Of a stretch of DNA of 64,000 nt, positions 917 through 14,772 are shown one piece after another. Where the stretch lies: positions 1 through 64,000 of the forward strand of contig CAMELR010000009.1 of NCBI GenBank assembly GCA_945923775.1, given 5' to 3'. Every line of letters starts with the position of its first letter. Positions within the stretch are counted from its first letter, which is position 1. Under the pieces are notes generated by a model that ran no database searches, was not told where the DNA came from, and worked only from the letters and a program-made list of their open reading frames with translations. Made by a program: the position numbers and the translations under genes. This DNA comes from an uncultured Clostridia bacterium (GTDB taxonomy: Bacteria; Bacillota; Clostridia; Oscillospirales; Ruminococcaceae).

Positions 917-3097
917 ATGAAAATGAACGAAACATCACATTTGTTCCTTGCAAAACGTGAAAATAATCCACTGCGCGGAAATATCCTGGTCAACACCAGG
1001 CAGTGCAAGCATTTCCCGGGCGACCCGGAGCGCTCCATTGCGCTCATGGAGGAGCTTGGCAGAAAGCTGGCTCAGGACGGCAGGGCGGACAAGACTACCG
1101 TTGTAATTGCATTTGCTGAGACCGCCACCGCTATCGGAGCGGTCGTTTCGGGTTTTTTCCACGACTGCTTTTTCGTAACCACCACCCGGGAGAGGCTCCC
1201 GGACTGGGCGACCGCCATCGGGTTTGAGGAGCAGCACAGTCATGCTCCTCAGCACTACCTCTGCGTTCGCGACGAGGACGCTTTCCGTCGCGCTGCACAG
1301 GTCATTCTTGTCGACGATGAATTCACCACCGGTCGGACCGCGATGAATCTTATCCGCGCCCTGGACGGCTGCCTTGCCCCAAGGTGCAGTATATACGCCG
1401 CCGCGCTTGCCGCCTCCGCTGAGAGCTGCGAGAATTTCCGCGCAGCCGGTATCACTCCGGTGTTCCTGGCTTCGTCGGACGGTATCGGCGGGTGCTCTGC
1501 TACGGAGCTTCCGATGCCTGACCGCGCGGTAACTCCCCGGGAGCCTGACAGAATAACGCATGTGAATTCAATATACGACCCGCGGCTCGGGGTTCACGCG
1601 GACAGCTACCTCGCGGAATGCAGCAGCTTTTGCACGCGTCTTGCCGGGGAGATCTCCGCTTCTGGCACAGTTGAGATAATCGGCACGGAGGAATTCTGCT
1701 ACCCGGCTCTGCTGCTCGGGAAAATGCTGGCGGGGAAGTGCCGCGCTGTGGTTCACGGCTCGACCAGAAGTCCTATGCTGCCGTGCGGCGGCCGGGACGG
1801 CTTCGCGGAGCCTGCCCCCGGAGAGTACCCCATAGTCAGCCGCGCGGCAATACGCAGCGTTTACGACCCGGAGCGCCGTGTGTACCTCTACAATAGCCGC
1901 CCGTGCGACCTTACAATTATCCTGACGGACGCGTATTCCCCCGATTTCTCAGCGCTGAATGAACTGTGCGGAGCGGCAGGCGGCGCGGAGGTCCAGATGA
2001 TATGCTGGCATGGAAAGAAGCTCCCGACATCGTATCTGCCGGAGGACGCCGAACTTCTGCTGACCGACATCACCGGTAAATTAGAGCCGCTTCCCGCAAA
2101 GGAGCGCGAGCCGCTGATACAGAGCGGAGTGCATTACAGCGAGCTTCTCCCGGCGGAATACCGTCCCTCCGACGCGTATTTCCGGGAGTACGAAAACGGG
2201 CTGAAGCTCTGGGCGAAGCCGAATGCCGACGCAGTGCGCACCGTAGCCGAGACGATATGGGCTGAAAAAGGACGGCATGCCGTGCTGGTATCGCTGGCGC
2301 GGGCGGGAACTCCTGCCGGAGTGCTGATAAAGCGCTATATCCGCAGAAAATACGGAGTTTCCCTGCCGCATTATTCGATTTCGATAATAGTCGGGCGCGG
2401 GATAGACCGCCGCGCGATGGAGTATATTCTTGCGCGCCACCCCGCTGACGGAATACAGTTTATCGACGGCTGGACGGGCAAGGGCATGATAACCCGCACT
2501 CTGCGCAGTGCGCTGGAGCAGTTCCCGCTGTACGAATACGGCATAGGCAGGGACAAACTAGACAGGCTGTGCGAAATCGCTGTGCTTGCAGACCCCGCCG
2601 GGCTTTGCAGGCTGTGCGGGACCCATGAAGATATGTTCATACCCTGCGCGTGCCTTAACAGCGTGGTTTCGGGGCTTTTCAGCAGAACGGTGCTGAAAAC
2701 TGGAGTGATACAGCCTGACGAGTTCCACGGCGCGGCGTATTTCGGGGAGCTTGCTCCTCTCGACCGCACGTATGAGTTCATCACGGCGATAGAGGCCGCT
2801 ATGACCTACGGTGAGGCTCAGCTTCCGCCGCCGGCTTCCGGGAAGGGTCTCGCGGAGACCCGGGAGATAGCCGAGCGGTTCGGGGTTCCTGATATTAAAC
2901 TTGTAAAGCCGGGAATCGGCGAGACGACCAGGGTGCTTCTGCGGCGCATTCCAGAGCTTATACTGCTCCGCGACCCTGACAGCCCCCTTACCCGCCACAT
3001 TTCCGAATTAGCCCGGGAAAAGGGCGTGGAGGTGCGGCAGTACCCGCTGAAATGCTACGAAGCGTGTGGCATTATCAGGGTGATGGACAATGTGTGA
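917..3097 (+). CDS. Four-domain PRTase-TRSP-StiP-PELOTA fusion protein
   Basis: A 726-residue protein that joins modules usually encoded as separate genes in Ter-type stress operons. Residues about 30-195 form a phosphoribosyltransferase with the PRPP loop VILVDDEFTTGRTA (129-142). Residues about 200-385 match the TRSP domain and carry a literal TRSP tetrad at 283-286. Residues about 400-630 resemble the StiP (cysteine protease/PRTase-like) family, with LARAGTPAG near 460 and FIDGWTGKG near 516. Residues about 645-726 look like the PELOTA-type RNA-binding domain. In the published Ter analyses these domains, together with a HAD enzyme, were predicted to make a nucleoside-like metabolite. The gene overlaps the HAD gene by 8 bases. 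No TerD, TerC or ATP-grasp gene is present in the window. Domain calls are from recall of family motifs and the exact boundaries are approximate. Confidence 0.8.
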   Translation: MKMNETSHLFLAKRENNPLRGNILVNTRQCKHFPGDPERSIALMEELGRKLAQDGRADKTTVVIAFAETATAIGAVVSGFFHDCFFVTTTRERLPDWATAIGFEEQHSHAPQHYLCVRDEDAFRRAAQVILVDDEFTTGRTAMNLIRALDGCLAPRCSIYAAALAASAESCENFRAAGITPVFLASSDGIGGCSATELPMPDRAVTPREPDRITHVNSIYDPRLGVHADSYLAECSSFCTRLAGEISASGTVEIIGTEEFCYPALLLGKMLAGKCRAVVHGSTRSPMLPCGGRDGFAEPAPGEYPIVSRAAIRSVYDPERRVYLYNSRPCDLTIILTDAYSPDFSALNELCGAAGGAEVQMICWHGKKLPTSYLPEDAELLLTDITGKLEPLPAKEREPLIQSGVHYSELLPAEYRPSDAYFREYENGLKLWAKPNADAVRTVAETIWAEKGRHAVLVSLARAGTPAGVLIKRYIRRKYGVSLPHYSISIIVGRGIDRRAMEYILARHPADGIQFIDGWTGKGMITRTLRSALEQFPLYEYGIGRDKLDRLCEIAVLADPAGLCRLCGTHEDMFIPCACLNSVVSGLFSRTVLKTGVIQPDEFHGAAYFGELAPLDRTYEFITAIEAAMTYGEAQLPPPASGKGLAETREIAERFGVPDIKLVKPGIGETTRVLLRRIPELILLRDPDSPLTRHISELAREKGVEVRQYPLKCYEACGIIRVMDNV

Positions 3098-3854
3098 TCC
3101 GCTTATTTTCTCCGACCTTGACGGCACGCTGATTTTTTCAGCTTCGAGGAAGCAGCCCGGGGACATCGTGTGCGAATACAAGGACAATAGGGAGATATCC
3201 TGCATAACGAAACGTCAGGCGGAGCTGCTCCCGGGGCTGGAGATCATTCCGGTGACCACCCGGAGCATTGAGCAGTACCGCAGGATACGCTTTCCGGAGG
3301 GATTCTCGCCGGAATATGCGCTGACCGACAACGGCGGCACTCTGCTGGTGAATGGAGCTCCCGACCCGGAATGGGCAAGACGTGCAATGCGTCTGGTTCA
3401 GGAAAGCTCCAAGGGGCTGGAGCGCTGCCTCAGCGTTATGGAGCAGGATCCCGGCAGGAACTTTGAGATACGCATGGTTGACGGAATGTTCCTTTTCACA
3501 AAGTCCACGGAGCCGGAAAGCATGCTCCGGAGGCTGAACGAGGTATCCGGGGCGGAGGTGCGCTGCTTCGCTGCGGGGGCGAAGGTATACGCGCTTCCGG
3601 CGGGTCTGTGCAAGGGGGCGGCGGTGAACCGCCTTGCAGGTATGTTAAAAGAGCGGCGCGGTCTCAGCAGGATAGTCTGCGCCGGGGACAGCGCAATGGA
3701 TATTCCCATGCTGAACGCCGCGGATACGGCGGTTTTCCCGGGGGATATTTCCGGGGTCACGGCTGCGGAAAAAGTCGTTTCTCGCCGGGAGAGGTTCCCG
3801 GAATTCGTAACGGAGTATTTTTACGAACTTTGCAAAGCAAAACAGAGGATATAA
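3090..3854 (+). CDS. HAD-superfamily phosphatase of the PRTase/TRSP module
   Basis: A 254-residue HAD hydrolase. Motif I is SDLDGTL with nucleophile Asp9 and general acid Asp11, and motif IV is GDSAMD near residue 205. The inserted middle region is consistent with a C2-type cap, as in Cof and sucrose-phosphatase-like enzymes. Its ATG lies inside the last codons of the preceding fusion gene (8-base overlap), so the two are probably translationally coupled and functionally linked. HAD genes in this position are a recurrent part of the Ter-associated metabolite module, where they are thought to dephosphorylate the product. The actual substrate is unknown. Confidence 0.83.
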   Translation: MCDPLIFSDLDGTLIFSASRKQPGDIVCEYKDNREISCITKRQAELLPGLEIIPVTTRSIEQYRRIRFPEGFSPEYALTDNGGTLLVNGAPDPEWARRAMRLVQESSKGLERCLSVMEQDPGRNFEIRMVDGMFLFTKSTEPESMLRRLNEVSGAEVRCFAAGAKVYALPAGLCKGAAVNRLAGMLKERRGLSRIVCAGDSAMDIPMLNAADTAVFPGDISGVTAAEKVVSRRERFPEFVTEYFYELCKAKQRI

Positions 3855-5726: not shown

Positions 5727-5747
5727 TTTCGCAAGAACATAACAAAA

Positions 5748-5780
5748 ATCCACGGAGCGTTTGTTCCGTGGATTTTTTAT
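5748..5780. terminator. Bidirectional intrinsic terminator
   Basis: A 9-bp stem ATCCACGGA (5748-5756) / TCCGTGGAT (5766-5774) followed by TTTTTT and preceded by AAAAA, so it can stop both the membrane-protein gene and the converging flavoprotein operon. Confidence 0.85.
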
Positions 5781-5804: not shown

Positions 5805-6512
5805 TTACTTGTTCATTTCCCAGTGAGCGAGGGTGATGGTCTCGAAGCCCTTCGGGGAAAGTATCGGCTTTGCGATACGCCTCTTTGTTTCCTCGGAGAG
5901 TGCGCGGTTCTGTGCGAATTCTGCGCCTGCCCTGGTTATCTCGGCAAGGTAGCCCTCGCGCTGGCGTTTTGCCTTATCGGCGATGAACAGCTCGCCCTCG
6001 GGACATAGTATCGCAGTGTAGTGTCCCTCGCCTGCGATAAGGTCAAGCTGCTTCAGCAGCGCGGGATACATCGGCTTTTCGTCGACATAGCCGCAGGTGG
6101 TGATGACTACAAGGCGCTTTTCATGCATGGATTCATCGCGCAGCTCGTGGAAGCTTGCGTTCTTGTCCTCGACAAGATTTCCCATATACGGCAGCATGAA
6201 CGGCAGGCAGCGGTCCGTTGTCGCCTTCATCTGGGACGGCATTCCGAAGAAATACAGCGGGAAACTCTCTATAACGATATCCGCAGCCTTGATCTTTTCG
6301 TAGATATCCTGCATGTCGTCCTTGATTACGCACTGTCCGGGAGTCCTGCTCCAGCAGGAGAAACAGCCCAGACAGGGCTTGATGTCCTTCTTGTAGAGGT
6401 TTACCTGCTCTACCTCTGTGTCAGCGGGGAAGCCCTTCAGAAACGCCTTTGTGATGTTCAGGGTATTGCTGCGCTCTGCCTTGGGGCTTCCGTTCAATAC
6501 TAATACTTTCAT
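5805..6512 (-). CDS. Flavodoxin-fold NAD(P)H-dependent FMN reductase / iron-sulfur flavoprotein
   Basis: A 235-residue member of the NADPH-dependent FMN reductase/iron-sulfur flavoprotein superfamily. The N-terminal LVLNGSPK loop binds FMN phosphate. The cysteine cluster CLGCFSCW...C near residues 48-63 resembles the Fe-S-binding motif of this family, and a SFPLYFFGMPSQMK block lines the flavin site. It is the last gene of the minus-strand type II FAS/PKS-like operon, 9 bases after the phosphopantetheinyl transferase gene. It could act as a tailoring oxidoreductase (for example on an enoyl or polyene intermediate), but this rests only on position. The family also includes general flavin and quinone reductases. 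Confidence 0.82.
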   Translation of the reverse strand: MKVLVLNGSPKAERSNTLNITKAFLKGFPADTEVEQVNLYKKDIKPCLGCFSCWSRTPGQCVIKDDMQDIYEKIKAADIVIESFPLYFFGMPSQMKATTDRCLPFMLPYMGNLVEDKNASFHELRDESMHEKRLVVITTCGYVDEKPMYPALLKQLDLIAGEGHYTAILCPEGELFIADKAKRQREGYLAEITRAGAEFAQNRALSEETKRRIAKPILSPKGFETITLAHWEMNK

Positions 6513-6521
6513 TTATTCTCC

Positions 6522-7157
6522 TTAATCGTCGTTTTCCGGCAGGGATATGCAGTAGTAATACTCCCCGCCGCACGCTCTGATGATCCCTTCTCTGAATATC
6601 CCGGACATTGGGAGATCGTCCTGACCGCACCTCTTGTAGTAGCTCTCGCGCCGGGTCCACTCGCGGTAGAACATGTCCTTCCTGTCCGCGGCGGGGCTTA
6701 TCTGGAGCATGTGAAGCTCACGCTGCTGCATGAAGGTTTTCGCCAGCTCCTCTATGCGCTGCGGGTCGGTTTCACGCGCGTGCTGGATATCCGCGCCTAC
6801 GGAAGCGTCGGCTCCAATGGCGAGGCAGCACAGCGCGGCTCCCTCGGAGTGCGATATGCTGAAATCAATATCGCTGCGGTTTATTATGCAGGGTCTGCCG
6901 CTGCTGTCGCGCATTATCGCGAGGTCGCGGCGGTCTATCCCGTTCTTTTTCAGGAGGTTGTCCAGCAGCAGGAATCCGCAGGCGCTTTCCTCGTAACGGT
7001 CGCCGTGTACGCCGGTTTTGCCCGCCTTCGAAACCAGGTAGTCGAAATAATCCGAGCAAACGCCGGAATACTCTGCCCGCGCCGCTTCTACCCGGTTTAT
7101 AAGCTCCGCGCCGCCCGACACTATGCAGGCGCTCCAGTCAAATTTCAGCTCAGCCAT
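6522..7157 (-). CDS. 4'-phosphopantetheinyl transferase, Sfp type
   Basis: A 211-residue Sfp-superfamily transferase that moves the phosphopantetheine arm of CoA onto a carrier-protein serine. The family signatures are present: SISHS near residue 110, GADIQ near 133 (magnesium-binding Asp) and the WTRRESYYK helix near 178 (family pattern WxxKExxxK, with R replacing the first Lys). Its ATG overlaps the end of the dehydratase gene by 8 bases. Co-location with the acyl carrier protein gene, rather than use of a genome-wide AcpS, argues that this pathway has a dedicated activating enzyme, as in polyketide and aryl-polyene clusters. Confidence 0.9.
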   Translation of the reverse strand: MAELKFDWSACIVSGGAELINRVEAARAEYSGVCSDYFDYLVSKAGKTGVHGDRYEESACGFLLLDNLLKKNGIDRRDLAIMRDSSGRPCIINRSDIDFSISHSEGAALCCLAIGADASVGADIQHARETDPQRIEELAKTFMQQRELHMLQISPAADRKDMFYREWTRRESYYKRCGQDDLPMSGIFREGIIRACGGEYYYCISLPENDD

Positions 7158-7599
7158 AAACCGCGCTCTTATCCATCGAGGTGAAAAGCATGCTGCCCTT
7201 TGCCTTGACTACTCCGTCAGCGGATATTACTGCGGAAAATTCGTACGCTCCGGCGGCTGCCATAGTGACCTTTACCGATATCTCCAGTCTGTCGCCGGGA
7301 ATGACCGGGCGCACAAACTTGAAATCCTTGACCTTCAGCAGGACGTACAGCTTGTTTTCATCGGAAGCTGCATCGTCCGGGGCGATAACGAGGCTGCAAA
7401 GCTGTGCAGCGCTCTCGATGAGCAGTACTCCGGGCATTATCGGGGTCTCGGGGAAGTGTCCCATGAAGTACGGCTCGTTGACGGAAACGCACTTGATGCC
7501 CTTAGCGGATTCATTCGGGACAAGCTCGGTGACGCGCTCTATCATCTGGAAAGGCGGGCGCTGCTTTATGCGCTGGTTGATCTCAAGAAGATTCATCAT
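7150..7599 (-). CDS. FabZ-like 3-hydroxyacyl-ACP dehydratase
   Basis: A 149-residue single hot-dog dehydratase. The FabZ signature GHFPETPIMPGVLLIE supplies the catalytic His and the downstream helix glutamate, and a PPFQMIERV stretch precedes it. It starts within the stop codon of the ketoreductase gene (ATGATG over TGA) and overlaps the transferase gene. A housekeeping fabZ in Clostridia would normally be beside fabD, fabK, fabF and acc genes, none of which is here, so this copy probably serves the local pathway. I leave the symbol empty for that reason. Confidence 0.85.
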   Translation of the reverse strand: MMNLLEINQRIKQRPPFQMIERVTELVPNESAKGIKCVSVNEPYFMGHFPETPIMPGVLLIESAAQLCSLVIAPDDAASDENKLYVLLKVKDFKFVRPVIPGDRLEISVKVTMAAAGAYEFSAVISADGVVKAKGSMLFTSMDKSAVYG

Positions 7600-8330
7600 A
7601 AGCTGAGACCTCCGTCAAGCACGATCACCTGTCCGGTAACATACGCGAAAGCGTCGGAGCAGAGCTGTGCAACTACGTCTGCGACTTCCTTAGCGGTGCC
7701 AAGGCGGTGCATCGGGATAGCCTTGAGGTATTCTTCCTTCTTGTCCTCGGGGATAGCGTCGAGCATTTCGGTCTCGATGAAGCCGGGAGCGACTGCGTTT
7801 ACACGGATACCGCGGGGGGCAAGCTCCTTTGCGAGGGTCGCAGTCATGGAGTTGACCGCGCCCTTTGTAGCGCTGTAAACGCCCTGTCCGTCAACGGCGA
7901 GAATGGAGCTTACAGAGGAAACGTTGATTATAACGCCCTGCTTCTTGCTCATCATCTTGAGAGCCGCCTGCTGTGCGCAGTGGAAGTATCCCTTGATGTT
8001 GATATCAAGGCTTCTCGTGAGGGAATCCTCGTTTATCATCAGCAGGAATGCGTCGTCGACTACGCCGGCATTGTTGACCAGCACGTCAAGCCTGCCGAAA
8101 GCCTTGTGAGCCTCGCGGAACATGTTCTGAACTTCCTTGAGGTCGGCGGTGTTCGCCTTTATCGCTACGGCTTTCTGACCGAGCGCTTCGATCGCGGAGA
8201 CTACCTCCTGCGCCTTAGCCTCGTTAGAGTTGTAATTCACCACTATATCGTAGCCGCATTCCGCCAGGCGAAGCGCGCACGCCTTGCCTATTCCGCGGGA
8301 AGCGCCTGTTACCAGTGCTACCTTTTCCAT
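7596..8330 (-). CDS. FabG-like 3-ketoacyl-ACP reductase
   Basis: A 244-residue classical short-chain dehydrogenase/reductase. It shows the NADP-binding TGASRGIGKA motif (residues 8-17), NNAG near 86, catalytic Ser, YSATKGA (Tyr/Lys) near 151, and the C-terminal ITGQ/LDGG-type ending typical of FabG. It is expected to reduce the beta-keto group of ACP-bound intermediates made by the adjacent KS-CLF protein. It is 153 bases downstream of that gene, the only large gap inside the operon; the gap holds a small repeat. Specificity for housekeeping fatty acids or a specialised product cannot be decided by sequence alone. Confidence 0.85.
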   Translation of the reverse strand: MEKVALVTGASRGIGKACALRLAECGYDIVVNYNSNEAKAQEVVSAIEALGQKAVAIKANTADLKEVQNMFREAHKAFGRLDVLVNNAGVVDDAFLLMINEDSLTRSLDINIKGYFHCAQQAALKMMSKKQGVIINVSSVSSILAVDGQGVYSATKGAVNSMTATLAKELAPRGIRVNAVAPGFIETEMLDAIPEDKKEEYLKAIPMHRLGTAKEVADVVAQLCSDAFAYVTGQVIVLDGGLSL

Positions 8331-8426
8331 TTGTCCTCCTTAAAAACGATTCGGAATCCGGGGTCTGTTAGACCGTTCCTCTGTACGGGATTCCGGTGCC
8401 TGCGTTCAGCGGGCGAATTAAAATCC

Positions 8427-8477
8427 GTCGCGAAGCGACACCATAATTCCGCATTCCGAATTCCGAATTCCGAATTT
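8427..8477. repeat. Palindrome plus 7-bp tandem repeat in the KS-CLF/FabG gap
   Basis: The 153-base gap 8331-8483 contains a small palindrome GTCGC-GAA-GCGAC (8427-8439) followed by four tandem 7-mers, AATTCCG, CATTCCG, AATTCCG, AATTCCG, then AATTT (8445-8477). Palindrome-plus-AATTC-type repeats of this sort occur as dispersed intergenic elements in some Clostridia, so this may be one copy of a multi-copy element. Only one copy was noticed in this window. Confidence 0.7.
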
Positions 8478-8483
8478 GAAATA

Positions 8484-10817
8484 TTACGCTTTCTTGAGCA
8501 CTACTGCGGAATAAGAACCGCCTGCGCCCCATGCCGCCGCCAGTACATACTTGTAACCGGAAACGTCCACGTCGGCAGCCTTGCCGCCGATGTAAGCCTT
8601 AGCAGTGCTTCCGAGCTTACCAGCCAGGAGCTTCGCAGCGTAAGCCGCCTGCTCTGTGCCTGCGGCCGCTCTAGCCTCGCCGATGGTCTCCCTTACTGCG
8701 AAAACAGGGATATCTCTGCCGAATACCTTCTTGTAGGTGGAAAGCTCCAGCTCGTCGATGGTCTTGTGACCGTTCGCGAAGCCGCTTACCGCGTCGATGT
8801 CTGATACGGAGATACCAGCGTCAGCGCAAGCGGACTCTATAGCCTTTGCGAGGGCGTCCTCAGAGCCGCTTACCGTGCCGAACTCGACCGCGTGGTGAGT
8901 CATAGCGCAGCCTGCTACCTCGGCGTATTTCTCAGCGCCGCGCTTTTCAGCGGAGGAAGCCTTCTCAACGATGAGGGAGACTGAACCTTCGCCGAGCACG
9001 AAGCCGGGCTTCTCAAGAGAATAGGGCTTTGTTTCCGCCAGCAGACCCAGCTTGCCGTAAAGCTCTGCGTCTACGTCGGTGTTCTCATCTGTGCCGCTTG
9101 CAACCATGATGTTCTCACTGCCGTTGTGGAGTACGTCAGCGGCGTAGCAGATACTCTGTAAGCCAGCCTGAACGCTGTTCGCTACGGTCACGTTGTAGCC
9201 CTTGATCCCGGCGAAAATGCTGAAATATCCGCCTGCGGCGTTATAAACTGTGTTCGGGAAGGAGAACGCGCTGCCGTTCGCAGTGCCGCCCTCTACTACC
9301 GCCTTCTGGAAGCCTACGATCTCGGTCATCGGGCCGTCGGACGTGCCGACTACTATGCCGATGTCGTTCTCGTTGCTCTCGTCAATGGTGATCTTGCCGT
9401 CTGCGAGAGCTCTCATGCCGCTTATGAGCTGTATCTGGCTGAAGCGGTCGAGCTTGCGGTAGAACGCCATCTTTATGCCGTGCTCCTTGTAGTCGTCGGA
9501 GGTGATGGAAGCGCGGATACCCTTGCCCTCTTCCTCTGTGTTGCCGACTACCTCGCCGATACCGGTGATATAGAGCTTCTCGGAGTTTGTGTTGTCGGGG
9601 ATCTCGTGGGGCTTCTTAGCAAATACGATACTTGCGTTGTTGCCGCCGAACGCAAAGGAGTTGGAAACCGCGTAGTTAACGGGCTTCTTGCGCTTGGTGT
9701 TCGGAACGAAATCTATCTCGCCAGCCTTTTCCTTCAGCACTGCAAGGTCCTCGTCGGAGTAGCCGATTGTGGGAGGTACAACGTCCTCGCATACTGACTT
9801 GACGGTCAGCACTGCCTCGATGGAGCCTGCCGCGCCCAGGCAGTGACCTGTCATGGACTTGGTGGAGCTTACGGAAAGGTGCTTGTTCTCGTCAAACAGC
9901 GTGTGCAGGGAGAGGAACTCAGCCTCATCGTTCTTGGCTGTGCCGGTTCCGTGGGCGTTGATGTAGTCGATGTCGGTGAACTCCAGGCCGGAGGTCTTTA
10001 CTGCGCGTCTGATAGCGCTCATCTGACCCTGACCGTCGGGACGGGGAGCGGTGATGTGGTGCGCGTCAGAGCTTACGCCGGAACCGAGTATCTCGCAGTA
10101 GATCTTAGCGCCGCGAGCCTTTGCGTGCTCGTAGCTCTCTACTATAAGTATACCTGCGCCCTCGCCGAGGGTGATGCCGTTGCTGTGGTTGAACGGGGAG
10201 CATGCGTCAGCCGCGAGAGCGTGCAGCGCGTGGAATCCCGCGAACGCCAGCGAAGAGAAGCTGTCGGAGCCGCCCGCAACGAATGCGTCAGCCTTGCCAG
10301 CGCGGATAAGGTCAGCGGCATAGGAAAGGCTCATCGTGCCTGCGGCGCATGCGTTTACGATGTTGGCGGTCGCGCCGTTCAGCCCGAAGTGCTTCGCAAC
10401 GTTGTTCGCGATGGCAGCGGCGGGCATTCTGAGAATATCGGACGGCTTTGCTGAGCCGGTCTTGAATTCATCGGTGTAGTACTTGTCAATGCTTGCGGCG
10501 CCTCCGACGCAGTTGCCGACGATAACGCCTATGCGGTTGGAATTATCCGCAGTTACGGTGTAGCCTGCGTCTGCAAGAGCCTCGCCTGCCGCCTTGATGC
10601 ACAGCAGGGAGCTGCGGTCGTAGTCCTCGCTTGAAAGCTGTTCGGAGCTTTCAGCTACCTCCGCGCCCTTGTTTGCGTAGCAGCCCTCGGTGCTCACGGA
10701 CTGTACCTCGCGGATACCGGTGATCCCGTTGGAAGCCGCGCTCCAGCACTTGTCGGTGCCGTCGCCGAGCGCACAGATAAGTCCCAGACCTGTTACAACG
10801 ATCCTTCTGTCGCTCAT
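8484..10817 (-). CDS. Fused ketosynthase plus chain-length-factor-like ketosynthase
   Basis: A 777-residue protein with two tandem FabF-type condensing domains. Domain 1 (residues about 1-405) keeps the catalytic triad: Cys157 in NACAAG, His289 in NAHGTGT and His325 in TGHCLGAAG. Domain 2 (about 413-777) is clearly homologous but by-eye alignment gives Val549 at the Cys position, Asn at the first His and Glu at the second, so it looks catalytically dead, like the chain length factor of type II polyketide synthases. A KS and CLF in one chain is unusual. The start at 10817 is one base after the ACP stop; a start at 10841 would overlap the ACP gene and has no better ribosome site. It probably builds an ACP-bound chain with the adjacent KR and DH. 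Confidence 0.88.
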   Translation of the reverse strand: MSDRRIVVTGLGLICALGDGTDKCWSAASNGITGIREVQSVSTEGCYANKGAEVAESSEQLSSEDYDRSSLLCIKAAGEALADAGYTVTADNSNRIGVIVGNCVGGAASIDKYYTDEFKTGSAKPSDILRMPAAAIANNVAKHFGLNGATANIVNACAAGTMSLSYAADLIRAGKADAFVAGGSDSFSSLAFAGFHALHALAADACSPFNHSNGITLGEGAGILIVESYEHAKARGAKIYCEILGSGVSSDAHHITAPRPDGQGQMSAIRRAVKTSGLEFTDIDYINAHGTGTAKNDEAEFLSLHTLFDENKHLSVSSTKSMTGHCLGAAGSIEAVLTVKSVCEDVVPPTIGYSDEDLAVLKEKAGEIDFVPNTKRKKPVNYAVSNSFAFGGNNASIVFAKKPHEIPDNTNSEKLYITGIGEVVGNTEEEGKGIRASITSDDYKEHGIKMAFYRKLDRFSQIQLISGMRALADGKITIDESNENDIGIVVGTSDGPMTEIVGFQKAVVEGGTANGSAFSFPNTVYNAAGGYFSIFAGIKGYNVTVANSVQAGLQSICYAADVLHNGSENIMVASGTDENTDVDAELYGKLGLLAETKPYSLEKPGFVLGEGSVSLIVEKASSAEKRGAEKYAEVAGCAMTHHAVEFGTVSGSEDALAKAIESACADAGISVSDIDAVSGFANGHKTIDELELSTYKKVFGRDIPVFAVRETIGEARAAAGTEQAAYAAKLLAGKLGSTAKAYIGGKAADVDVSGYKYVLAAAWGAGGSYSAVVLKKA

Positions 10818-10818
10818 A

Positions 10819-11064
10819 TTACTCACCCATGTGGTCCTCAACGTACTTTGTGAGGGTCTCGATGGTCTGGAAGTTCTCTCTTGCAGCGCCGGTCATCTGT
10901 ACGCCGAACAGGTTGTCGATACCTGCGATGATCTCGATGGAGTCGATGGAGTCGAGTCCGATGTCATCGCCGAACAGCTCGCTGGTGTACTCCAGCTCGT
11001 CAGCGGGGATTCTCAGGTTCTCTACCAGCATGTTCTTGATCTTCTCTGCAATCTCTGTGTTCAT
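10819..11064 (-). CDS. Acyl carrier protein
   Basis: An 81-residue acidic acyl carrier protein. The phosphopantetheine attachment site is Ser39 within GLDSIDSIE, a close variant of the standard DSL motif. The length and helical pattern match free-standing type II ACPs. It lies one base before the KS-CLF start, so it is probably the partner ACP. The phosphopantetheinyl transferase of the same operon is the likely activating enzyme. Ile in place of Leu after the modified Ser is more common in specialised ACPs than in the housekeeping fatty acid ACP. Confidence 0.92.
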   Translation of the reverse strand: MNTEIAEKIKNMLVENLRIPADELEYTSELFGDDIGLDSIDSIEIIAGIDNLFGVQMTGAARENFQTIETLTKYVEDHMGE

Positions 11065-11112
11065 AATTAATACCTCTCAAAATAAAATTTGTCCTGCGGA
11101 TTTCCCGCGTGT

Positions 11113-11811
11113 TTACTTGTTTTCTGCCGGAGCATAGCTTTCGGAATAGGTATCCGTTTTGCCGTATTTCTGCTCCAGGATCCCGTAAAGCCGCTTTGTT
11201 TCGTCCTCTGCCTGCTTCATGAGTTGCTTTGCGTACTGTGAGTGCCGCATGTTATCCGGGCATTTGCTCTCGATGGGGTTTCCGACCAGCAGCCGCTGCC
11301 GCTTTCCGAACACCATATGATAGCCGCCGTAGATAGCCGCCGGGACTACGCATGCGCCTGTCGAAGCGCACACCAGCGCCGCGCCGGGCTTGAACTTCTC
11401 GATTTTTCCTTCCCTGGCGATACCGCCTTCCGGGAAGATTATCAGAGAACCATTGCGGCGGATTATCTCCTCCGCAGTGGTGTACCAGCTCGCGTCCGCG
11501 CCGTCAAGGTCGATGGGGAAGCACCTGCACCAGCCTATCATAGTGCCGACGCCCTTCTTGTCGAACCAGCTCTTTTTTACGAGGACGTAGGGCTTGTACC
11601 GCCCCAGCACCGCGCCGGTGTAGGCTCCGTCGAAATGGTGCGTGTGGTTGAACACGAACACCGCGGGCTTTCCTTTGAGCTGCTTCTTCACGGACTTGTC
11701 GACCCACTCTACCTTTGGTCTGAACAGGAAATATACTATCCAGGTGATTATCACCTGATATATTTTTCCCCAGAGGGACTGATTCAAGGGGCTTTTCTTG
11801 TCGTTTTGCAT
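11113..11811 (-). CDS. PlsC-like glycerophospholipid acyltransferase
   Basis: A 232-residue LPLAT-family acyltransferase. The HX4D active site is NHTHHFD near residue 55, and the phosphate-binding block FPEGGIAREG lies near residue 125. An N-terminal hydrophobic stretch (about residues 13-27) suggests membrane association. It is the first gene of the minus-strand operon, with the promoter at 11857-11885 and a GGGAG ribosome site. In aryl-polyene clusters a similar acyltransferase is thought to place the finished chain onto a lipid, and the same role is plausible here. Alternatively it is an ordinary lysophosphatidate acyltransferase that happens to be co-transcribed. Confidence 0.87.
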   Translation of the reverse strand: MQNDKKSPLNQSLWGKIYQVIITWIVYFLFRPKVEWVDKSVKKQLKGKPAVFVFNHTHHFDGAYTGAVLGRYKPYVLVKKSWFDKKGVGTMIGWCRCFPIDLDGADASWYTTAEEIIRRNGSLIIFPEGGIAREGKIEKFKPGAALVCASTGACVVPAAIYGGYHMVFGKRQRLLVGNPIESKCPDNMRHSQYAKQLMKQAEDETKRLYGILEQKYGKTDTYSESYAPAENK

Positions 11812-11856: not shown

Positions 11857-11885
11857 ATTATACCTGGATTTCTTTTTTATTTCAA
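11857..11885 (-). promoter_or_regulatory. Sigma-A promoter for the type II FAS/PKS-like operon
   Basis: On the minus strand TTGAAA (11885-11880), a 17-base spacer and TATAAT (11862-11857), about 45 bases before the acyltransferase ATG. Confidence 0.75.
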
Positions 11886-12297: not shown

Positions 12298-14772
12298 ATG
12301 AAATTCGGTCATTTTGATGACAAAAACCGCGAGTATGTAATTACCTCACCCCGCACCCCGTATCCGTGGATAAACTACCTCGGAACCCAGGGCTTTTTCT
12401 CTCTGATATCCAACACGGCAGGCGGCTACAGTTTCTATAAGGACGCTCGTCTGCGCCGTATCACCCGTTACCGCTACAACAACGTCCCGATAGACATGGG
12501 CGGCAGATACTTCTACATCAAGGACGGCGACACCATCTGGAATCCCGGCTGGTCCCCTGTAAAGACTGAGCTTGACAGCTACGAGTGCCGCCATGGCATG
12601 GGCTACACCATCATCACCGGCAAGAAGAACGGACTCAAGGCTGAGGCTACCTTCTTCGTTCCGCAGAACTACGACGGCGAGGTACAGCAGCTTGTTCTCA
12701 CCAACGAGAGCGGCTCCGCAAAGACCTTCAAGCTGTGGTCCTTCGCAGAGTGGTGCCTCTGGGACGCTCAGGACGACTGCACTAACTTTCAGAGAAACTT
12801 CTCCACCGGACGTGTTGAGGTAGTAGGTTCCACCATCTACCACAAGACCGAATACCGCGACAGACGCGACCACTTCGCATTCTACACCGTTAACGACTCC
12901 ATCGACGGCTACGACACCAACCGTGATTCCTTCATCGGCCTGTACAACGGCTTCCACAACCCGCAGGCTGTCCTGGACGGCAAGGCTAACAACTCCTTCG
13001 CCGACGGCTGGTCTCCGATAGCTTCCCACTACAAGGAGATCACCCTTGCCGCAGGCGAGAGCAAGACCCTCGTATTTATTCTCGGCTATGTTGAGATGCC
13101 CGTTGCTGAGAAGTTCGAGGCTGACGGCAAGACCATCAACAAGGTAAAGAGCAACGCAATGATCGAGAAGTACAACACTCCCGAGAAGGTCGCTGCAGGC
13201 CTTGCAGAGCTGAGAGAGACATGGGATAAGCTGCTCGGTATCCTCAACGTTGACACGCCTGACGACAAGGTAAACCGCATGGTCAACATCTGGAATCAGT
13301 ACCAGTGCATGGTTACGTTCAACCTGTCTCGTTCCGCTTCCTACTTCGAGAGCGGTATCGGACGCGGCATGGGCTTCCGTGACTCCAACCAGGACGTACT
13401 CGGCTTCGTTCACCAGATCCCCGACAGAGCAAGAGAGCGTATCATCGACATCGCTTCCACACAGTTCCCGGACGGCGGCTGCTATCACCAGTACCAGCCT
13501 CTCACCAAGAAGGGCAACGCTGATATCGGCGGCGACTTCTCCGATGACCCGCTGTGGCTCATTCTCTCCGTTTCCGCATACATCAAGGAGACCGGCGACT
13601 GGAGCATTCTTGATGAGATGGTACCCTACGACAATGATATGTCCGTCGCACAGCCGATGCTCGAGCACCTGAAGGTTTCCTTCTACCACATCGTGAACAA
13701 CCTCGGCCCGCACGGTCTGCCCCTCGCAATGCGCGCAGACTGGAACGACTGCATCAACCTCTCCTGCTACTCCGATACTCCCGGCGAGTCTTTCCAGACC
13801 TACACCAACCCGAAGTTCAAGGCAGAGGGCGGCTACTCCAAGGTCGCTGAGTCCGCATTCGTGGGCGCTCTGTTCACCTACGCAGGCCCGAACTACGTTC
13901 AGATACTCAACCACCTCGGCAAGACTGACGAGGCTGCAAAGGCACAGGCTGAGATCGACAAGATGAAGAAGGCTATGATGGATTCCGCTTGGGACGGCGA
14001 CTGGTTCCTCAGAGCGTATGACGCAGAGGGCAAGAAGATGGGCTCCAAGGAGTGCGAAGAAGGTCAGATCTTTATCGAGCCGCAGGGCTTCGCTATCATG
14101 TCCGACATCGACGCTGAGGCTTCCAAGAAGACCCTCAAGGCTATCGACGAGAGACTGAACACCCAGTACGGTCTGGTGCTCAACAATCCCGCATTCACAA
14201 AGTACTATATCCAGTACGGCGAGATCTCCACATATCCGGGCGGATACAAGGAGAACGCAGGTATCTTCACACACAACAACGCATGGATAATCTGCGCCGC
14301 TGCATACGCAGGCGAAGGCGACCAGGCGTTCAAGTACTACTCCGAGATCGCTCCGGCGTTCACTGAGGAGACTTCCGACATTCACAAGACCGAGCCGTAC
14401 GTTTACGGTCAGATGATCGGCGGTAAGGACGCAGGCGCTGATATCGGCAAGCAGGGCGACAACTTCGGTCAGGGCAAGAACAGCTGGCTGACAGGTACAG
14501 CGGCATGGAACATGGTCGCTATCTCCCAGTACATTCTGGGTATCGCAGCAGACTTCGACGGTCTGAAGATCGACCCGTCCATTCCTCATGAGTGGGACGG
14601 CATGAAGGCTACACGTCAGTTCCGCGGCGCTACATACGACATCACCGTTAAGAACCCGAACCACGTTTGCAAGGGCGTTAAGAGCATGACTGTTGACGGT
14701 AAGGCTGTTGACGGCAATGTTATCCCTGTAATGGACGGCGGAAAGCACACCGTTGAGGTCGTTCTCGGCTGA
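12298..14772 (+). CDS. Cellobiose phosphorylase, GH94
   Basis: An 824-residue cytosolic glycoside hydrolase family 94 enzyme that splits cellobiose with phosphate to glucose and alpha-glucose 1-phosphate, saving ATP during cellulose sugar use. The N-terminal beta-sandwich (about 1-300) precedes the alpha/alpha barrel. The RADWND motif near residues 479-484 carries the general-acid Asp, and the [20 protein letters not shown] block near 340 is typical of the family. Length agrees with ruminococcal and clostridial cellobiose phosphorylases, and there is no signal peptide. Codon choice is strongly biased (for example nearly uniform AAG, GAG and GAC), suggesting high expression. It stands alone between its own promoter and terminator, with no sugar transporter next to it. 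A cellodextrin or related beta-glucan specificity cannot be fully excluded. Confidence 0.92.

Follow-up and report, generated by a model that had tools for sequence, protein, structure and literature searches.

The window analysed here, a stretch of 64,000 nucleotides (GenBank assembly GCA_945923775.1, contig CAMELR010000009.1, positions 1 to 64,000), comes from an uncultured member of the Ruminococcaceae (Clostridia), the genome of which has 2.97 Mb and is 93.8% complete. Seven open reading frames (ORFs) on its minus strand, from 11811 down to 5805, form an operon that includes a ketosynthase (KS) fused to a chain-length factor (CLF), and their joint product is probably a membrane lipid that carries an unusual polyunsaturated fatty chain. 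An earlier note, made from the sequence alone, had described seven co-directional genes of named families; each ORF lies at the coordinates given there, and the family assignments are all borne out by Pfam matches above the curated cut-offs.

The first gene (11113..11811) encodes a PlsC-like (lysophospholipid acyltransferase-like, LPLAT-like) acyltransferase of 232 aa with HX4D and PEGG motifs (PF01553, Acyltransferase, E 2.4e-19; 69.9 bits against a cut-off of 23), whose conserved His, Asp, and Glu are kept in 64, 61, and 63 of 64 alignment rows, respectively. It is followed by an acyl carrier protein (ACP) of 81 aa (10819..11064; PF00550, PP-binding, E 3e-10; 40.6 bits against 20.8), with Ser39 kept in 84/84 rows, and by the KS-CLF fusion of 777 aa, the KS half of which occupies 9591..10817 and the CLF-like half 8484..9590. 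The ketoreductase (KR; 7596..8330) is a FabG-like short-chain dehydrogenase/reductase of 244 aa that scores 223 bits with adh_short_C2 (cut-off 27) and 264 bits with TIGR01830, under the cut-off of 298; its triad Ser139-Tyr152-Lys156 is kept in 88/88 rows. The dehydratase (DH; 7150..7599) of 149 aa is FabZ-like, passing the FabZ model NF000582 (123.8 bits against 113) and the FabA-like Pfam model (84 bits against 23) while remaining under the cut-off of TIGR01750 (fabZ; 118.6 bits against 155), and its His48 and Glu62 are kept in 85/85 rows. The phosphopantetheinyl transferase (PPTase; 6522..7157) of 211 aa is of the Sfp/HetI/AcpT kind (PF01648, ACPS, E 4.4e-10; 40 bits against 25), its 54.9 bits with the HetI model being under the cut-off of that model. 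The last gene (5805..6512) encodes a flavodoxin-like protein of 235 aa with a predicted flavin mononucleotide (FMN) fold (PF03358/PF02525; FMN_red 67 bits against 24) and a C-x2-C-x2-C-x7-C motif, which we regard as a candidate ene-reductase.

The seven genes are likely to be one transcription unit, because a promoter-like site (TTGAAA-17-TATAAT, minus strand, 11857..11885; 11/12 in the consensus scan) lies upstream of the first gene and an intrinsic-terminator-like hairpin with a 13-pair stem (minus strand, 5744..5777) lies directly after the last. The region holds eight promoter-like sites against 3.6 expected, which by itself is no evidence of function, and ten terminator-like sites against 7.6 expected, among which the stem at 5744-5777 is the longest. 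In the window, no Rfam match came up to the gathering score of its family. The genes are closely packed, with gaps of 48 nt (PlsC/ACP), 1 nt (ACP/KS-CLF), and 9 nt (PPTase/flavoprotein) and overlaps of 4 nt (KR/DH) and 8 nt (DH/PPTase). We place the start of the fusion at the ATG at 10817, one base past the ACP stop; the 785-aa form in the ORF list begins at a TTG within the ACP gene. The fusion query and its residue numbering run from codon 2 (window 10814, 776 aa), so that the true residue number is one higher.

The only large gap of the operon, 8331-8483 between KS-CLF and KR, is occupied by a hairpin with AATTCGG repeats that resembles a miniature inverted-repeat transposable element (MITE) and is no functional part of the pathway. 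In the three nearest relatives this gap measures 53-60 bp in two and 285 bp in L055. A similar MITE-like hairpin is situated between the housekeeping fabG and fabF genes on contig C3 of the same genome (about 2958-3100; L044), and, with up to two mismatches allowed and overlapping hits counted, the genome holds the repeat motif at 87 + 86 places, while the reversed control gave 0.

Judging from the alignment and the structural model, a KS with intact catalytic residues is paired in the fusion with a KS-fold CLF that has lost them. Two stretches each of ketoacyl-synt (159.6 bits) and Ketoacyl-synt_C (163.8 bits; cut-off 20.8 for both) mark two KS units in one protein, and the KS half scores 496 bits with TIGR03150. 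Cys156, His288, Lys319, and His324 of the KS half are kept in 89/89 rows (the window and 88 other loci). In the CLF half, the Cys position is variable and the His positions are mostly N/D/C and G, while Gln549, one residue after the Cys position, is kept in 87/89 rows, the exceptions being the proteins of Priestia (V) and Streptomyces (A). A Gln in a CLF can mark decarboxylation, and self-priming of the KSQ type was suggested by the VQAG motif around this residue; this idea was dropped when the alignment placed Gln549 at Cys+1. The AlphaFold2 model of the two-domain chain, made with 32 sequences, has a pLDDT (predicted local distance difference test) of 88.6 and a pTM (predicted template modelling score) of 0.93, and within it the CLF half of 368 aa has the full KS-like set of elements.

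Two trees were calculated, one of 53 rows including 16 FabF rows and one of 33 rows with KS sequences only; Iga11 is in neither. In the 53-row tree, the KS halves of the gut fusions form one clade (support 100/100) apart from FabF (85/93), and they are grouped with the KS halves of fusions on Priestia and Streptomyces plasmids and with PDB 9s5h_B (98/91), 9s5h also being the closest solved KS by sequence. The gut CLF halves fall into a single clade as well (100/100), which is joined with the CLF halves of the Priestia and Streptomyces fusions (100/99). Because both halves group with those of other fused proteins, the fusion seems to have arisen once and long ago, a reading qualified by a warning of the tree program that long branches meet at this grouping. 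In the 33-row tree, with a FabF clade of 95/92 and a gut KS clade of 100/100, a grouping of the gut KS with the FabF of the same genome was rejected (pAU, the p-value of the approximately unbiased test, 2e-6).

Full-length fusions were found in 10 of 297 genomes sampled from the family, five of the ten belonging to the genus of the window, and in 4 of 391 sampled from the class (the source genome is counted in both). Within the genus, 37/43 genomes had a match (35 near full length, two partial), including 25 of the 27 good-quality genomes. The fusion is probably not essential, because the other six had no match at the E limit, and two of these are at least 97% complete. A scan of named genomes gave 126 relatives; the best 80, which all cover at least 736 of the 776 query residues, were retained. 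Among these best 80 of 126 are Ruminococcus bromii ATCC 27255, 5AMG, and YE282, Ruminococcaceae P7, and Lachnospiraceae G41; by family label they comprise 28 Oscillospiraceae, 20 Lachnospiraceae, 29 without a family name, and three single others, two of which (Bacteroides and Anaeroplasma) are labels of metagenome-assembled genomes (MAGs) and may be wrong. The fusion is also present on the megaplasmid of Lachnospira eligens ATCC 27750. R. flavefaciens was in no title among the best 80 of 126, and no search was aimed at it.

The operon is a second, dedicated FAS/PKS-like system and not the housekeeping cluster, because the genome has a separate type II fatty acid synthase (FAS II) set, FabD, and FabV, and because the fusion is placed apart from FabF in the KS trees. 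The genes fabH, fabG, fabF, accB, fabZ, accC, accD, accA, and acpP are grouped on contig C3 (named from ORF translations, and fabF additionally by Pfam), FabD is on contig C5, and a FabV-type enoyl reductase is on C60. A Pfam search found three ketoacyl-synthase domains in the genome, namely the one in FabF and one in each half of the fusion. The earlier note had likewise denied that this was the housekeeping fatty acid cluster and had proposed a KS phylogeny as the check; its assertion holds, the KS half being placed not inside the FabF clade of a genome lacking another fab set but outside that clade in a genome that has one. FabV was present in 15/16 genus genomes examined, FabK in 0/43 at 1e-20; when the source genome was searched with E. 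coli FabI, three matches of 22-25% identity came up, the operon KR and FabG among them. The idea that the flavoprotein is the sole enoyl reductase of the cell, raised when FabK and FabI were missing, was dropped when FabV was found. Three R. bromii genomes with the cassette have FabK, while the genus of the window has FabV.

It might be argued that the operon is an accessory branch that works with the housekeeping FabV to produce membrane fatty acids of the ordinary saturated or monounsaturated type. The KS and DH pass some FabF and FabZ cut-offs, the KR scores high with FabG models, and FabV is nearly always available in the genus. Against this, a dedicated ACP, PPTase, and CLF would be superfluous in a cell that already has its own FabF, FabG, FabZ, and AcpP, and the genus genomes without a fusion match suggest that the product is dispensable; we consider this explanation unlikely.

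The cassette was compared in 89 loci (nine genome stretches, 80 loci from the scan, and three plasmid loci, minus three duplicates), several of which end at contig edges. KS-CLF was present in 89, KR in 87, DH in 84, ACP in 83, the flavoprotein in 77, PlsC in 70, and PPTase in 30. The seven genes have the exact order of the window in 28/89 loci, with a further 17 showing this order minus PPTase, and in 89/89 those core genes that were found within 6 kb are on the strand of KS-CLF; because of this order and strand, the grouping is more than chance. Distances of the other proteins correlate with those of KS-CLF (PlsC.96, KR.94, flavoprotein.89, ACP.88, PPTase.87, DH.81), and 0 of 999 permutations were as high, although simple vertical descent would produce such a correlation as well.

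Relatives have further genes beside the cassette. FabD was counted in 19 loci, in 16 of them within 220 bp of DH (gene-neighbour clusters without L126-L128), and the carboxyltransferase AccD + AccA in 15. A patatin-like phospholipase is present in 18 loci; 17 of these have it co-directional, 10 have it no more than 46 bp from a core gene, and in L041 it overlaps PlsC. A TetR-type regulator occurs in 20 loci, on the opposite strand in 15. FabH is present in 4/89 loci and FabK in 3/89; three belong to a downstream fab operon, and the fourth FabH is the KASIII of the Streptomyces cluster. No FabV was found in the 89 loci; FabI was not sought there. On the L. eligens megaplasmid, a replicon of 627 kb (L126; [Eubacterium] eligens ATCC 27750), FabD, carboxyltransferase, and PlsX adjoin the cassette, PlsX following the flavoprotein and an alpha/beta hydrolase taking the position of PlsC. 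An opposite-strand trio (a zinc-ribbon membrane protein, a 418-aa protein without a Pfam match, and an alpha/beta hydrolase) adjoins the Lachnospiraceae-type cassette in seven loci (L100, L111, L112, L114, L116, L123, and L124).

The best PDB sequence match of the flavoprotein is 7d38 (30 bits over 106 residues, E 2.8e-6), a structure of FLR, a flavone ene-reductase (PMC7862272). Both share a flavodoxin-like N-terminal part and a DD pair, and the four Cys of the flavoprotein align with Cys of FLR, the likeness being limited to this short stretch. The four Cys columns are kept in 77/78 rows, the remaining row having a gap. The motif presumably resembles that of iron-sulfur flavoproteins. The source genome holds no paralogue at 1e-5, and the model has a pLDDT of 83.6 and a pTM of 0.84. 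The flavoprotein may be regarded as a hypothetical ene-reductase. As the earlier note stated, the operon has no fabD, acc, or fabH; its claim that an enoyl reductase is also absent stands for the classical enzymes and needs this flavoprotein as a caveat.

On balance, we lean towards a second, dedicated synthase of acyl chains that belongs to the highly reducing (HR) type II polyketide synthases (PKSs), has a fused KS-CLF, and delivers a polyene or polyunsaturated chain to a glycerolipid. What the data show directly are the gene content, the kept catalytic residues, the fused architecture, the distinctness from FabF and from the housekeeping genes, and the recurring gene order. In the pathway that we propose, where the polyene nature of the chain, its length, its starter unit, the lipid acceptor, and the role of the flavoprotein are all predictions, the operon ACP would be activated by the operon PPTase and loaded with malonyl by the housekeeping FabD. 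The KS half would condense malonyl units in a pocket common with the inert CLF half, which would set the chain length. KR and the FabZ-like DH would turn each beta-keto group into a trans double bond, and these bonds would stay, the operon having no classical enoyl reductase, to give a conjugated polyene or other polyunsaturated acyl-ACP. The PlsC-like enzyme would then link the chain as an ester to a (lyso)glycerolipid; the lyso acceptor could, in those relatives with a patatin-like phospholipase beside the cassette, be a product of that enzyme. One double bond may be trimmed or reduced by the flavoprotein. A polyunsaturated, probably polyene, chain esterified to a glycerolipid is favoured because relatives recruit malonyl supply, no FabH, FabK, or FabV belonging to the cassette was found in them, and PlsC recurs, joined in some lineages by patatin or PlsX. 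The earlier suggestion of a polyene or modified lipid in a Gram-positive gut anaerobe therefore remains the best reading, its product being a prediction.

Several points weigh against this assignment. From the missing enoyl reductase gene it does not follow that the double bonds survive, as FabV or FabK could act in trans. The housekeeping FabI was proposed and tested for such a step in cispentacin biosynthesis (PMC10698177). Since the flavoprotein weakly resembles a flavone ene-reductase, the product may be partly reduced. FabF and the gut KS as a single clade were not rejected in the 53-row tree (pAU 0.114), and the KS scores 287 bits with FabF chains against 203 with 6kxd_A, which we take to be the polyene KS Iga11. 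The CLF Gln is at Cys+1, unlike in the aligned aromatic CLF L138, which has Gln at the Cys position (L137 has Gly there), so decarboxylative self-priming is unsupported. In addition, L094, L097, and L104 have no cassette DH, the DH counted for them being part of a fab operon that is located downstream at a distance of more than 6 kb.

A GH94-family gene (12298-14772) is divergent from the operon, and window 917-3097 encodes a protein with PRTase_2, TRSP, StiP, and PELOTA_1 domains, of a tellurite-like stress gene kind. The adjoining phosphorylase-family gene would suit a cellodextrin user, and cellulolytic Clostridia are known for yellow pigments (PMC12144888), which brings to mind the pathway of their yellow affinity substance (celluxanthene or flavoaffinin). 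The pathway to which celluxanthenes are assigned, however, uses CexF, an iterative type I PKS, along with two KASIII and a ligase, and R. flavefaciens DSM 25089 is described as having no celluxanthene cluster (PMC12144888). This candidate was rejected, as a type I PKS is required and the source genome has no ketoacyl-synthase domain beyond FabF and the fusion; we regard it as exceedingly improbable.

If the preferred polyene glycerolipid reading is true, gut anaerobes such as R. bromii make an undescribed polyunsaturated lipid, which cluster callers may miss. R. bromii and L. eligens are starch- and fibre-degrading gut bacteria. We raise the more specific and less probable proposal, tentatively, that such Clostridia, including most of the genus of the window, have an unrecognised membrane-lipid pathway for a polyene phospholipid: the stand-alone fusion would make a conjugated polyene chain on the operon ACP, PlsC, in some lineages together with a patatin, would put it into phospholipid, and the last double bond would be set by the FLR-type flavoprotein. 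Gram-positive anaerobes would in that case have a counterpart to the aryl-polyene lipids that Gram-negative bacteria make. Protection from oxidative stress and a benefit to biofilms have been ascribed to aryl polyenes (PMC10904984), and a polyene lipid could, if present, do likewise here. A single-chain KS-CLF outside the polyunsaturated fatty acid (PUFA) megasynthases would, if confirmed, be of use for studies of chain-length control, and the cultured strains named above carry it.

Among known systems, the fusion is closest in fold to a PUFA synthase. The best Foldseek match is the KS-CLF didomain of PfaC (6riw; E 4.6e-47, TM-score 0.79 by query length, root-mean-square deviation 7.7, 18% identity), which also has KS and CLF in one polypeptide and is the only match spanning both halves among the 50 listed, the other 49 being single FabF-type chains. 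Among six wordings for such a fusion, only "KS-CLF didomain" was found in the open-access literature, in four papers that all concern PUFA synthesis by title or abstract. The operon might thus be a dissociated (type II) PUFA-synthase-like system, making methylene-interrupted or partly reduced chains with the flavoprotein as an unconventional enoyl- or ene-reductase and PlsC esterifying them to a membrane lipid; the FLR match, the lack of a paralogue, and the presence of the flavoprotein in 77/89 loci would fit. PfaC is, however, described as part of a type I megasynthase, whereas the fusion here is stand-alone among single-domain proteins and no PfaD-type gene is among the seven. Nor was a FabA-like isomerising dehydratase seen: the DH, with its invariant Glu62 and its passing FabZ score, reaches 29 and 23 bits with FabA models against cut-offs of 124 and 238. 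We therefore find a PUFA-like system doubtful.

Close kinship with the aryl polyene (APE) clusters to which the earlier note had likened the gene set is not supported: the CLF is full-length and fused, there are one ACP and one KS, and aryl-starter genes are absent. KS, KR, and DH are common to both, and in the cluster of E. coli CFT073 an LPLAT-like acyltransferase lies between the CLF (240 aa) and two ACP genes. APE CLFs are half-size, and APE systems have two ACPs, two KSs, KR, and DH (PMC8358021); acyl-CoA synthetase, methyltransferase, and glycosyltransferase are further features of these clusters. A true aryl-polyene pathway could take its aryl starter from elsewhere in the genome, and nine loci have an AMP-dependent synthetase as synteny neighbour. 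This synthetase was rejected as a starter ligase, neither the window nor the remainder of the contig of the window holding a match to it. The operon has no ammonia lyase, ligase, thioesterase, or glycosyltransferase, and two MAG surveys, in the parts at hand, give arylpolyene calls for other phyla and none for Clostridia. We hold such a pathway to be very unlikely.

Other fused KS-CLF proteins are those of Priestia megaterium pBM500 (L127) and of a plasmid of Streptomyces sp. NBC_00536 (L128), both halves of which group with the gut ones; they share 34-35% identity with them, have no conserved Gln, and have other gene neighbours. They belong to quite different plasmid PKS/FAS-like clusters, and no PlsC or flavoprotein match was found in the plasmid stretches compared. 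Aromatic type II PKSs differ from the operon, which has its CLF Gln at Cys+1 and no cyclase. In HR type II PKSs, KS-CLF, KR, and DH act in repeated cycles to give aliphatic polyenes (PMC10698177), and the ishigamide system (Iga11-Iga12; PMC10698177, PMC8358021) shares with the operon a dissociated KS-CLF + KR + DH + ACP set and, with the caveat of the FLR-like flavoprotein here, no classical enoyl reductase gene. Unlike that system, the operon has KS and CLF in one chain, a KS scoring nearer FabF, regular PlsC and flavoprotein partners, and anaerobic gut Clostridia as hosts. No description of the cassette was found among the open-access papers listed, most subscription papers being outside this coverage. 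We file the operon, with its fused KS-CLF, as a variant of the HR type II PKS, a described kind.

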